DNA of 59,072 nucleotides, from the NCBI GenBank assembly GCA_019235885.1, contig JAFAKB010000073.1:1-59072 (forward strand), written 5' to 3'. Shown here in pieces: positions 34,921-37,762 of this stretch; the stretch's first letter is position 1, and every line of letters starts with the position of its first letter. The notes under the pieces are model-generated. The model ran no database searches and was not told the origin of the DNA. It saw nothing but the letters and a program-made list of their open reading frames with translations. Origin of the DNA: Candidatus Eremiobacterota bacterium. Lineage in GTDB: Bacteria; Vulcanimicrobiota; Vulcanimicrobiia; Vulcanimicrobiales; Vulcanimicrobiaceae. A program made the translations under genes and the position numbers.

Positions 34921-34996
34921 GGCCGTGGGGCGGGAAGGAGATGGCGGCTCAAAACGCCTATCCCCCACGCCGTGGCCCCCAGGAATGGGGGCGCCG
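34921..34996 (+). other. structured leader/3'-UTR segment between glmM and the riboswitch
   Basis: Two inverted repeats: CGTGGGG (34924-34930) with CCCCACG about 20 bases on, enclosing GGCG/CGCC, then GCCCCC (34975-34980) with GGGGGC. No U tract follows. It may end the glmM transcript or belong to the leader of the downstream hydrolase. I do not recognise a known RNA class. The promoter for the riboswitch transcript should lie within 34887-35049, but I cannot pinpoint it. Confidence 0.35.
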
Positions 34997-35049
34997 GCCT
35001 GGTGTAGTGCTTATCGCTCCATCGGGATTCGAATTTACCTGCTAGCGAT

Positions 35050-35167
35050 CACGGAGTCCGGTGCCCGCAGGCGCCGGAGCGGGGGACCAACCAAGGCAGG
35101 GGTGAACGCGCCGGTCGGCGCGCGGGCGATTTCTTCCGCCCGAACCCGTCAACTAACCCCGTACGTG
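35050..35167 (+). promoter_or_regulatory. ydaO/yuaA-type c-di-AMP riboswitch
   Basis: The leader of the NlpC/P60 gene carries the conserved blocks of the ydaO aptamer in order: a CGGGGGACC-like block near 35080, GGGGTGAA at 35098-35105, CCGCCCGAACCCGTC near 35136-35150, then AACTAACCCCGTA. CACG (35050-35053) and CGTG (35164-35167) can close P1. The class binds c-di-AMP, usually lowering expression, and often precedes wall hydrolases. Only 18 bases separate the aptamer from the start codon and they contain the ribosome-binding site, so control is probably translational; no terminator hairpin fits. Confidence 0.9.
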
Positions 35168-35185
35168 TGGAAGAAGGAGCAGTTC

Positions 35186-35857
35186 TTGCATCGTTCCATC
35201 CTCACCGGGTTGTTCGTGTGCATTCTCTCGGCGGCTCTGCCCGCCGTGGCGAGCGCGGACACGACCAGTGAACAGGGTGCTCCGGCCGTCGTGACGACGG
35301 CCGTGACGAGCGCCGCGCCCGCGCCGGGCGCCTCCGAGGTAGCGGCCCCCACCGAAGGCGCCGACCTCGTCATGTGGAACGCGTCATCCGCAAAGGCCGA
35401 CGAGAGCACGACCGAGACGGTCGCCCCGGCCAAGCTGACGCGCTTCGCCCACCTCAGGAAGTTCGCCGGCGGGATCGCCGCCCGCGGCGCCGCCATGGCG
35501 TCGAGCCTGACCCGGAACGCCATGAAGTTCCTGGGCGTCCGGTACGCCTTCGGCGGGGAGTCGGCCTACGGGTTCGACTGCTCCGGCTACACCCAGCACG
35601 TCTTCGCGATGATGGGCATCCACCTGCCCCGGATGGCGGACGAGCAGTACTACGCCGGCAAGCGCATCACCGGCGCGCCAAAGGCAGGTGACCTCGTGTT
35701 CTTCCACACCTACGCGCCGGGCGTCTCGCACGTCGGAATCTCGCTGGGCGGCGACAAGTTCGTCCACGCCTCGTCGAGCCACGGCGTGATGGTCTCGACC
35801 CTCCACGACTCGTACTGGGGGCCGCGCTACCTCGGCGCCAAGCGCGTCGTCGAGTAA
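35186..35857 (+). CDS. secreted NlpC/P60 family cell-wall hydrolase
   Basis: A 223-residue peptidoglycan hydrolase (gamma-D-glutamyl-diamino-acid endopeptidase family). A signal peptide is cleaved near VASA-D24, then an Ala/Thr-rich linker (about 25-95), then the NlpC/P60 domain. Catalytic residues are Cys132 (FDCSGY), His182 (SHVGIS) and probable third residue His194 (HASSSHG). The TTG start is set by AAGAAGGAGC six bases upstream; earlier in-frame starts lie inside the riboswitch. The c-di-AMP riboswitch in its leader and the cdaA operon just upstream predict control by c-di-AMP. Confidence 0.93.
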   Translation: MHRSILTGLFVCILSAALPAVASADTTSEQGAPAVVTTAVTSAAPAPGASEVAAPTEGADLVMWNASSAKADESTTETVAPAKLTRFAHLRKFAGGIAARGAAMASSLTRNAMKFLGVRYAFGGESAYGFDCSGYTQHVFAMMGIHLPRMADEQYYAGKRITGAPKAGDLVFFHTYAPGVSHVGISLGGDKFVHASSSHGVMVSTLHDSYWGPRYLGAKRVVE

Positions 35858-35967: not shown

Positions 35968-36366
35968 ATGGACGCCGGCGACAACCAAGATCTGCAGCAG
36001 CGAGCGGCCAACGCCTATGTGGTGTGGCCGCTCGCCGTGCTCGATCTCTTCCGCGAGCCGGCCGACGCGACCGCGTGGTCGCGGCTTCACACGCGACAGG
36101 CGTTCGTCTACGGCGTTTTGGCGACGTTCGCGTATCTCGTGCTGCTCGCACTCCCGCTGCTGCTGCTGATCGTGATCCCGCCGCTCGCCGCCTCGACGAC
36201 GGCGGTGGTCGTTCTCTACGCGCTCGGCATGCTGGCCGACTTGGTCGGCGCGTTCGTGCTCATCGGTCTCTCGCTCTCGTACCGCGAGCGAGCGCTCCGC
36301 GGGGAGCTGTTCGCGATCCCGTACGTCACGCCGCTCGCCGACCGCGTCTTTCGTTTGGAGCGCTGA
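35968..36366 (+). CDS. DUF4870/Tic20-like small membrane protein
   Basis: A 132-residue protein with two to three membrane segments (VLATFAYLVLLALPLLLLIVI and VVVLYALGMLADLVGAFVLIG) and a short cytoplasmic C-terminus (YRERALRGELFAIPYV). The pattern of an N-terminal soluble stretch, RQAFVYG before the first helix and a final GE(L/P)xxIPY resembles DUF4870-type proteins. Function unknown. It stands alone between the wall hydrolase and tRNA-Gln. Confidence 0.6.
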   Translation: MDAGDNQDLQQRAANAYVVWPLAVLDLFREPADATAWSRLHTRQAFVYGVLATFAYLVLLALPLLLLIVIPPLAASTTAVVVLYALGMLADLVGAFVLIGLSLSYRERALRGELFAIPYVTPLADRVFRLER

Positions 36367-36434
36367 GCGCGGCGAGGGAACCAGGACGGACCAGCGAAGC
36401 CGTCGCGTCGCGCGCAAAGGCGCACCCGAGCCGA

Positions 36435-36506
36435 TGGGGCGTAGCCAAGCGGTAAGGCAGCGGACTTTGACTCCGCCATGCGTTGGTTCGAATCCAGCCG
36501 CCCCAG
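36435..36506 (+). tRNA. tRNA-Gln (TTG anticodon)
   Basis: Cloverleaf with acceptor TGGGGCG/CGCCCCA, anticodon loop CTTTGAC (anticodon TTG, glutamine), discriminator G. CCA is not encoded. Its 3' half is duplicated 174 bases downstream and a partial inverted copy lies between. Confidence 0.95.
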
Positions 36507-36529
36507 CACTCTGTTCGCTCGGCTCGATG

Positions 36530-36559
36530 TGGCGGAGTCGAAGGCCGCTGCCTTACCGC
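36530..36559 (-). repeat. imperfect inverted copy of the tRNA-Gln D/anticodon-arm region
   Basis: The reverse complement reads GCGGTAAGGCAGCGG and then CTCCGCCA, matching bases 36450-36480 of tRNA-Gln with a few mismatches around the anticodon. It cannot fold as a full tRNA. It looks like a rearranged fragment. Confidence 0.6.
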
Positions 36560-36631
36560 AGCGCAGGCGCTTGCGCCGGAGCGGCATTCAACTACCGGGG
36601 GTCCCCGGCGTGCTTGCACGACGGGGTTTTT

Positions 36632-36684
36632 CAGCGGACTTTGACTCCGCCATGCGTTGGTTCGAATCCAGCCGCCCCAGCACT
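36632..36684 (+). repeat. 53-bp perfect duplication of the 3' half of tRNA-Gln
   Basis: Bases 36632-36684 are identical to 36458-36510, covering the anticodon arm, variable loop, T arm, 3' acceptor strand and four following bases. The D arm and 5' acceptor are absent, so it is not a tRNA. A duplicated tRNA 3' end is the usual scar of integrase-mediated insertion at a tRNA (attL/attR-like); here only 121 bases separate the copies. Confidence 0.75.
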
Positions 36685-36754
36685 TCGCTCCGTTACCGTC
36701 GCGCGAGCGAGCGGCCGCCGCAGGAACCGCGCCGCGCTCGCGCAAGGTGGTTTC

Positions 36755-37762
36755 ATGTCGACGTCGTTCGGCGGCCGTCTGCGCCGCATCGTGGTCGCCT
36801 TCGCGTGCGCGGCGCTGTGCGCCGGGGCGCTCGTTGTCGCAACTCCGCTCGCCGCCTGGGCGGACGACGCCGTCGACGGGTTCAGCCGCGCGCAGTCGCT
36901 CTTCCACGAGCGGAAGTTTCGCGAAGCGATCACCGCGCTCGACACGTACATCACCGCGCACCCGCGCGACGCGCGCGCGATCGTGCTGCGCGGCGACTGC
37001 AAGGCCGACCTCGGCGACAACGACGCCGCGCTGAAAGACTACAACGCGGCGATCGGGATCGATCCGGAGTATCAGTACGCCTACACGACCCGCTGCGAGA
37101 CGCGGCTCCAGCTCGACGATCTTGCCGGCGCGCTCGCCGACTGCAACACGGCCCTGCGCCTCGACGCGACCGACCCGCTCTCGTACGAGGACCGCGGCGA
37201 CGTCTACTTCCAGCGCCAGTCGTACGCGCTGGCGTTGCAGGACTACGACAAGGCGATCGAGCTCGGGCGCACGGGCGCGTACGTGTTCGCGGCGCGCTGC
37301 GACACCGAACGGCTCGTCGGCAAGCGCAGCTTGGCGAAGCCCGATTGCGAGAAGGCGCTCGCGATCGATCCGAAGAGCCGGCGCGGGCTGTGGGCGCGCA
37401 GCCGCCTGGCGATGGTCGAGTCGCGGTACACCGACAGCATCGCCGACCTGAACGCGTACATCGCCTTGAACCCCGAGTCGTCGGACACCGCGTACTACTA
37501 TCGCGGCTTGGCCTACAACCGGATCCACAGTTATCAAAGCGCGCTCGACGATCTGCGCACCTACGTCGGACGCCAGTCGAAGGACCCCGACGGCTACAAG
37601 GAGCGCGCGATCGCGCGCTACGGGGTCGGGGACAAGGCCGGCGCGCTGGCCGACCTCGACCTCGCGCTCAGCGGCTATCGCAGAGACGGCAACACCGCCG
37701 AAGCCGACCGCGTCGCGGCGATGGTGAAGGCGATCGGCGCGGGGCAGCCGCCGCAGCCGTGA
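36755..37762 (+). CDS. secreted TPR-repeat protein
   Basis: A 335-residue exported protein. Signal peptide (RRIVVAFACAALCAGALVVA, cleavage near AWADD). The rest is eight or so tetratricopeptide repeats of about 34 residues: FREAITALDTYITAHPRDAR, DAALKDYNAAIGIDPEYQYA, YALALQDYDKAIELGRTGAY, and so on. TPR arrays form helical scaffolds for protein binding; the partner is unknown. ATG 36755 has AAGGTGG upstream. The stop overlaps the next start (GTGA), so it begins a three-gene coupled unit with SnoaL-like and STAS proteins. Confidence 0.82.
   Translation: MSTSFGGRLRRIVVAFACAALCAGALVVATPLAAWADDAVDGFSRAQSLFHERKFREAITALDTYITAHPRDARAIVLRGDCKADLGDNDAALKDYNAAIGIDPEYQYAYTTRCETRLQLDDLAGALADCNTALRLDATDPLSYEDRGDVYFQRQSYALALQDYDKAIELGRTGAYVFAARCDTERLVGKRSLAKPDCEKALAIDPKSRRGLWARSRLAMVESRYTDSIADLNAYIALNPESSDTAYYYRGLAYNRIHSYQSALDDLRTYVGRQSKDPDGYKERAIARYGVGDKAGALADLDLALSGYRRDGNTAEADRVAAMVKAIGAGQPPQP

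Follow-up and report, generated by a model that had tools for sequence, protein, structure and literature searches.

The stretch of DNA analyzed here, referred to as the window, comprises 59,072 nt of contig JAFAKB010000073.1 from Candidatus Eremiobacterota bacterium (GCA_019235885.1; genome G000 in our collection). It contains a gene for tRNA-Gln(TTG), the 3' part of which is repeated a short distance downstream, followed by a gene for a TPR-repeat protein (Table 1). The repeated segment, here called D, extends from the anticodon arm to 3 bp beyond the end of the tRNA, and its two copies lie 174 bp apart from start to start with 121 bases between them. A first-pass annotation, made from the letters alone, had described a perfect 53-bp repeat with this spacing, an inverted fragment between the copies and an intact tRNA gene. 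The repeat search recovered both the direct repeat and the inverted fragment, the latter as a 30-nt pair at 36449-36478 and 36530-36559 with 93% identity (28/30), and the tRNA gene was found to be complete by both ARAGORN and Rfam. The inverted copy is complementary to the tRNA sequence around the start of D, beginning 9 bases ahead of it and ending 21 bases beyond it, and the 19-bp filler that separates it from D matches nothing. With a score of 24 for the inverted copy, against at most 9 in 528 mismatched controls, and with its recurrence in other genomes, the arrangement exceeds what chance would produce.

Table 1. Features of the tRNA-Gln locus in the window, with the evidence for each.
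Feature	Position	Strand	Evidence or remark
Intact tRNA-Gln(TTG), insertion target	36435..36507	+	ARAGORN; Rfam 64.8 bits; 3' part is the left copy of D
Left copy of D (duplicated segment of the target, 53 bp)	36458..36510	+	100% identical to 36632-36684
Filler between D and inverted copy	36511..36529		Right flank: no clear match
Inverted copy of the insertion point	36530..36559	-	28/30; inverted-copy score 24, against 9 or less in 528 controls
Structured element core (R1 model 1-75)	36560..36631	+	67.1 bits, E 5.8e-16
Hairpin P3 (GGCGC / GCGCC)	36566..36577	+	Helix 1 of alignment A4
Hairpin C (CCCC...GGGG)	36603..36626	+	Helix 2 of alignment A4; 6/11 pairs changed on both sides
Right copy of D	36632..36684	+	Read as the displaced original tRNA 3' half, without the 5' half
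TPR-repeat protein gene, downstream	36755..37762	+	Pfam

The right copy of D obtained a tRNA score of 22.3 bits in Rfam, which is under the cut-off of 29, and the only other Rfam matches at the locus, besides the tRNA-Gln itself, were two miRNA matches at chance level. Between the right copy and the TPR-repeat gene sits a leader motif, CCGCAGGA, which is common to the right flanks in G000, G002 and G009 and to the flank of an empty tRNA-Gln in G005. Two reading frames upstream of the tRNA-Gln, a c-di-AMP riboswitch (ydaO/yuaA, 72.1 bits) was identified at 35040-35182, where it overlaps the 5' part of an NlpC/P60 frame at 34925-35857. Open frames on the minus strand at 36216-36587 and 36631-37020 cross the tRNA copies in antisense (LDSNQRMAES, GFEPTHGG) and would be spurious if annotated as genes. 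Elsewhere in the same genome, a contig of 9.4 kb carries 20 tRNA genes within 3 kb (L046, G000:C37:2500-5500), including a second tRNA-Gln(TTG) and a tRNA-Gln(CTG).

The 121 bp between the two copies of D hold a member of a dispersed repeat family that is non-coding and rich in hairpins. Two covarying helices were identified in an alignment of 17 copies, with 94.0% of the cells paired and with 8 pairs in which both sides have changed, in 22 cells altogether, a level of covariation reached in none of 500 shuffles; when the alignment was slid by 1-3 columns, the pairing fell to 31-53%. The structure was derived from the same 17 sequences and the covariation result therefore leans in its favour. 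The single-sequence RNA fold of the 121 bp was no better than shuffles on the plus strand (z 0.69; z -2.21 on the minus strand), and thus the structural claim rests on covariation and not on energy. Hairpin C is terminator-like, and the TTTTT that follows it, up to position 36631, forms the right end of the element. As read from the copies, the canonical form is GGGGnCCCC-stem-GGGG, then hairpin P3, a short linker and GGGGTCCCC-stem-GGGG. The core is about 75 bp and canonical copies are about 105-110 bp; the elements are under 200 bp, non-coding and with internal inverted repeats. Their right end is consistent, their left end occurs with or without a hairpin (hairpin A), and the flanking duplications are variable.

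A covariance model of the core, R1, for which the window's own core served as one of the 17 building copies that it also scores, gave matches at E<=1e-6 in 52 of the 99 genomes of the bacterial family. At a lax threshold of E<=0.1, matches were obtained in 94 of these 99 genomes, with up to 35 matches per genome and with tandem copies of the element in some genomes. The window's genome has four lax matches and, among the matches listed (to about E 6e-6), only the copy at the tRNA-Gln. Outside the bacterial family, weak matches were obtained in 8 of 37 genomes. The best E among these was 1.0e-6, and the strongest match came from a different family within the order. A strict canonical motif was recovered from 26 stretches of the genome collection, 17 of which are titled Candidatus Eremiobacterota and 9 "bacterium" or "bacterium UBP12", and gave no exact matches in viral contigs. 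Of the explanations offered by the first-pass annotation, it is that of a mini-element which has been borne out.

The arrangement is not peculiar to the window. We searched for the locus in 98 related genomes and then in the 99 genomes of the bacterial family, and read the loci individually; along with ordinary tRNA-Gln genes, loci with the complete arrangement were recovered. The same layout, in which a tRNA-Gln is followed by an inverted copy or a hairpin, the core and a second 3' half, was identified in 13 genomes from 7 genera (G000, G009, G002, G056, G120, G012, G042, G051, G111, G110, G107, G134 and G131). The inverted copy is present in 12 of the 13, its place being taken by a hairpin in G051. 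Furthermore, the core is located at tRNA-Gln without a second 3' half in G135 and G108, and with a second 3' half at a contig end in G016. Two tandem units were found in G056, and a second, decayed unit in G111. In the genus of the window, called g1 here, 3 of the 11 genomes have the element, the rest including incomplete ones, and the empty tRNA-Gln loci of G005 and G006 run directly into other sequence.

The first-pass annotation had suggested that the repeat might be the scar of an excised or deleted element. It had proposed to look in relatives for inserts between the two copies, and would have taken the same arrangement in relatives, without any insert, as evidence against its view. Relatives do share the arrangement, but the short stretch between the copies is itself the insert. 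The 3' halves start just 153-229 bp apart in the 13 genomes, so there is no large insert between them, and the idea of a scar finds no support.

Some other tRNA-Gln loci attracted our attention for different reasons. In G107, the second 3' half is broken by another short repeat-like insert (L090, G107:C172). A different palindromic insert, with a duplication from the T-arm to the 3' end, was found at a tRNA-Gln in G016 (L040, G016:C71:700-2700), and other elements may thus also make use of tRNA-Gln. In G037, it is the 5' half of the tRNA-Gln that is duplicated, around another hairpin-rich insert with a CAGGATG motif (L042, G037:C106:35200-37200).

Target duplication is found at many other sites. 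For 75 copies of the core, mostly picked for their model score, we searched the left flank for direct matches to the first 30 bases around the right edge. A direct repeat with a score of at least 13 was obtained for 17 copies, and although start positions from -6 to +24 were searched, all 17 repeats start at -4 to 0 relative to the right edge. Mismatched controls reached a score of 13 in 12 of 903 cases, some of the loci sharing a target gene. Two of the 17 positives represent neighbouring paralogous tRNA genes (L144, L169) and two are the already known Gln and Ser cases (L090, L096), which leaves 13 new ones. The remaining 58 copies showed no duplication at this threshold; such copies may be old or may insert otherwise. 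In the subset with a duplication, D is present to the left of the element and also abuts its right end. D measures 13 to 79 bp, or 82 bp where a tandem unit follows. Among the duplications read, the tRNA targets are those for Gln, Ser, Leu (two kinds), Val, Arg and Ala; the others are the 3' ends of fliG and nusG and one unnamed site. Because D also lies to the left of the element, an insertion into a tRNA gene leaves one complete tRNA upstream, and because fliG and nusG are among the targets, what is duplicated is DNA of the target rather than a fixed attachment sequence. The suggestion that the tRNA-Gln is a site prepared for another element is not supported either; the same core family is also found at unrelated targets and duplicates those targets.

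Altogether, 38 of 92 copies lie within 200 nt of a tRNA gene (21 of 75 if the 17 copies from searches with the tRNA-Gln locus or core are excluded), and all 38 are on the same strand as the tRNA. In L144, L158, L151 and L139, the copies abut the 5' ends of tRNA genes in such a way that the last Gs of the element serve as the first Gs of the tRNA. Yet other copies are located inside RNase P RNA genes (RF00010) at four loci in two genera (L126 1501-1573, L135 1501-1574, L147 1501-1579 and L159 860-938).

The second part of the footprint is an inverted copy of the insertion point. For 27 duplication-bearing copies and one copy without a duplication, we took the reverse complement of what lies left of the core and compared it with the target at and around the insertion point. 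The tabulated rows comprise 26 duplication-bearing copies, 21 of them positive, together with the copy without a duplication (G124/L159b); with a negative copy at tRNA-Ala (L159:390) added, the count becomes 21 of 27. The left start of D in the tRNA-Gln copy of G042 was shifted by hand by 8 bases. The scores of the 21 positive copies range from 11 to 28, whereas the highest score in 528 mismatched controls was 9. On one side of the insertion point the inverted copies cover 4-10 bases and on the opposite side 5-26, with a zero point that is uncertain by a few bases. They were identified at six sites: tRNA-Gln, tRNA-Ser, tRNA-Leu(GAG), tRNA-Leu(CAG), fliG and nusG. Since 12 of the 21 are at tRNA-Gln, and some of these come from close relatives, the six sites are a better gauge of independence than the 21 copies.

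All six duplication-bearing copies that lack the inverted copy have instead a left-end GGGGCCCC hairpin, as does the copy in G124, which lacks both the inverted copy and the duplication. The hairpin and the inverted copy occur together in the two fliG copies and, as judged by eye, in the nusG copy. The inverted segment is immediately adjacent to an AGYGnAG motif in the copies at tRNA-Gln, -Ser and -Leu. Furthermore, the inverted complement tracks variants of the local tRNA in G002 and G012. The same mismatch, GGCC in place of GTCC, is found in the inverted copies of three g1 genomes, which suggests that the inverted copy may there have been inherited rather than newly made; apart from this mismatch, the inverted copy of G002 follows the tRNA variant of its own genome. 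The inverted copy probably arises as the element inserts.

We hypothesize that the repeat is a palindromic mobile element, non-autonomous, which inserts at breaks with a wide stagger, often with fold-back copying, a reading of its mobility and mechanism to which we assign a probability of roughly 60%. According to this hypothesis, the right end of the element would be joined to the D side of the break, and the long single-stranded overhang of D would be filled in, resulting in the duplication. The 3' end of the overhang would often fold back and copy D together with a few bases of the adjoining duplex, yielding the inverted copy, and the fold-back product would then be joined to the left end of the element. 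If U stands for the sequence upstream of D, a staggered break with fold-back copying would be expected to leave U, D, filler, an inverted copy of U'D', the core and D, which is the footprint observed. Fold-back priming at breaks, including a variant with template switching, is discussed for yeast (PMC10622511). The complete identity of the two D copies in the window may reflect a recent insertion or a continuing exchange between them. For the g1 copies, both inheritance with homogenisation and repeated insertion are possible. Counting against the hypothesis are the 58 of 75 copies with no duplication at the threshold, the unmatched filler in the window and the six duplication-bearing copies that lack an inverted copy; moreover, several of the compared copies are close relatives and so do not represent independent events.

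Three candidates for the enzyme were considered, and none follows the distribution of the element. A Y1 transposase (RAYT) was identified in 4 of the 99 family genomes and a reverse transcriptase (RVT_1) in 11 of the 99, and neither was found in the window's genome. A TnpB-type nuclease domain was identified in 9 of 32 genomes chosen from the 99, with two domains in the window's genome. The end-joining protein Ku is present in 75 of the 99 genomes and is weakly associated with strong copies of the element (p=0.037 over genomes, p=0.11 over genera), while no Ku match was obtained in three genomes with the tRNA-Gln insert (G056, G120 and G134, the last of which is 76% complete).

We also considered the possibility of RNA-guided homing, in which the RNA of the element would carry, in front of a constant scaffold of hairpins, a guide of about 11-34 bases that pairs with both sides of the insertion point. 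The guide would direct a putative nuclease, or a putative integration machinery, to one and the same position in tRNA genes and at the ends of genes, leaving the target duplicated and the host gene whole. The complement does span the insertion point in all 21 copies that have the segment, it abuts AGYGnAG in the tRNA-Gln, -Ser and -Leu copies, and the fliG copy of G018 has a match of 13 nt to the fliG genes of G022 and G059, which belong to other genera, but one of 11 nt to its own. Of nine transitions in the complements, seven retain G-U or G-T pairing, which is not significant (p=0.09). The tracking of tRNA variants in G002 and G012 is in line with a guide, but it is explained equally well by fold-back copying or by conversion, and the insertion in G051 is at the same point of the tRNA-Gln without such a segment. 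The two TnpB-type RNA-guided nuclease domains of the window's genome are in favour of a guide, but among the element-rich genomes such domains are present in G018 and G047 and absent from G051, G110, G123, G131 and G052. The cores give a similarly divided picture: cores that share a target across genera resemble one another slightly more than those that differ in both genus and target (0.706 versus 0.676, p=0.001) but no more than cores with different targets in one genome (0.708, p=0.91), in pairs that are not independent. The similarity of the cores does not tell inheritance from repeated insertion. We consider a guide unlikely.

Another hypothesis is that each site represents a single ancient insertion, retained because its hairpins, next to tRNA genes, serve in regulation or processing. 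The copies of D and the inverted copy would have been homogenised, and mobility would be a thing of the past. The uniform orientation of the copies near tRNA genes (38 of 38), the mismatch shared by the three g1 copies and the finding that the nearest core in another genus has the same target in 17 of 25 cases all speak for such an origin. However, the element is patchy within genera, as in g1, where it is present in 3 of 11 genomes, some incomplete, and it occupies many unrelated sites with different flanks. We regard this explanation as rather improbable.

It is likewise a doubtful proposition that the element is SINE-like, in the sense that an RNA copy is primed at the nicked target by target-primed reverse transcription, with variable duplications and untidy 5' ends. 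The consistent right end, the left end with or without hairpin A and the variable duplications fit such a process. The distribution of RVT_1 does not, as G131, which has 29 R1 matches at E<=0.1, is without it, like the window's genome and all but 11 of the 99 genomes, although a divergent or past enzyme could have been responsible.

Given that D is a direct repeat of a tRNA 3' half starting at the anticodon stem-loop, and that tandem units occur, the locus could also be read as a scar, satellite or mini-form of an integrase-borne element with its att site in tRNA-Gln. The same core family duplicates sequence of tRNA-Ser, -Leu, -Val, -Arg, -Ala, fliG and nusG, and a single integrase att site shared with tRNA-Gln would not give duplications of such unrelated targets. 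Furthermore, the 3' halves lie close together in all 13 genomes, and the 121-bp insert is too short to hold an integrase gene. An integrase origin is thus very unlikely, and we reject the integrase scar in particular, since D changes with the target and no att sequence is common to the element and every target. Finally, the window comes from an assembly of 105 contigs and its copy taken alone could still be artefactual, but an assembly duplication or random local rearrangement is hardly credible as a general explanation and is refuted for the repeat family by its recurrence in 13 genomes of 7 genera with different flanks.

How does the element compare with small elements already described? The REP and BIME sequences are dispersed G+C-rich hairpins with RAYT (Y1) transposases. 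Our element resembles them in being a dispersed G+C-rich hairpin repeat with tandem copies in some genomes, and differs from the REP/RAYT system in that a Y1 transposase was found in only 4 of 99 genomes, in that the hairpins have one orientation and in that the target is duplicated. Similarly to the bacterial MITEs, it is small, has no gene of its own and duplicates its target, but there is no fixed duplication length and no parent transposase was identified. Nor did the copies that we read show any terminal inverted repeats belonging to the element itself; the inverted repeats that flank the core are copies of each target and thus do not represent terminal repeats of the kind that define a MITE.

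The closest described kind, as judged by layout, is the YPAL/RU-2 element of Yersinia, which is about 168 bp in size, contains internal inverted repeats and duplicates 3-26 bp of its target (Delihas, 2007; PMC2229807). Its targets are at or next to dyad symmetry, and its mobility was inferred from empty and filled sites (PMC2229807). Both are, on this account, small non-coding repeats with internal inverted repeats and target duplications of variable size, but the duplications reach 79 bp in our element and many of its targets are tRNA genes. Moreover, the inverted copy of the insertion point, which is present in 21 of 27 duplication-bearing copies here, goes without mention in that paper's section on YPAL. 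The same source lists the RPE of Rickettsia, a palindromic repeat of 105-146 bp inside RNA genes, including those for RNase P RNA and tmRNA, with a target duplication given as "?" in its table (PMC2229807). The RPE and our element share a presence inside RNase P RNA genes, in our case at four loci in two genera, a likeness of location. By contrast, the RPE is best known from in-frame insertions in proteins. No description of the present element was found in the open-licence PMC literature, where passages in PMC12306157 did not bear on it, which is weak evidence that it is unpublished.

The finding is of interest for several reasons. To our knowledge, the combination of long, variable target duplications with an inverted copy of the insertion point is an unusual footprint for a bacterial element. 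This footprint narrows the possible chemistry to a widely staggered break with fold-back copying, or to a guide. It also accounts for repeats of the "partial tRNA" class, which one would otherwise take for integrase scars. The pattern illustrates how insertion into essential RNA genes is possible without their destruction, and since the bacterial family holds both filled and empty tRNA-Gln sites, the rules of insertion are directly testable in these bacteria.
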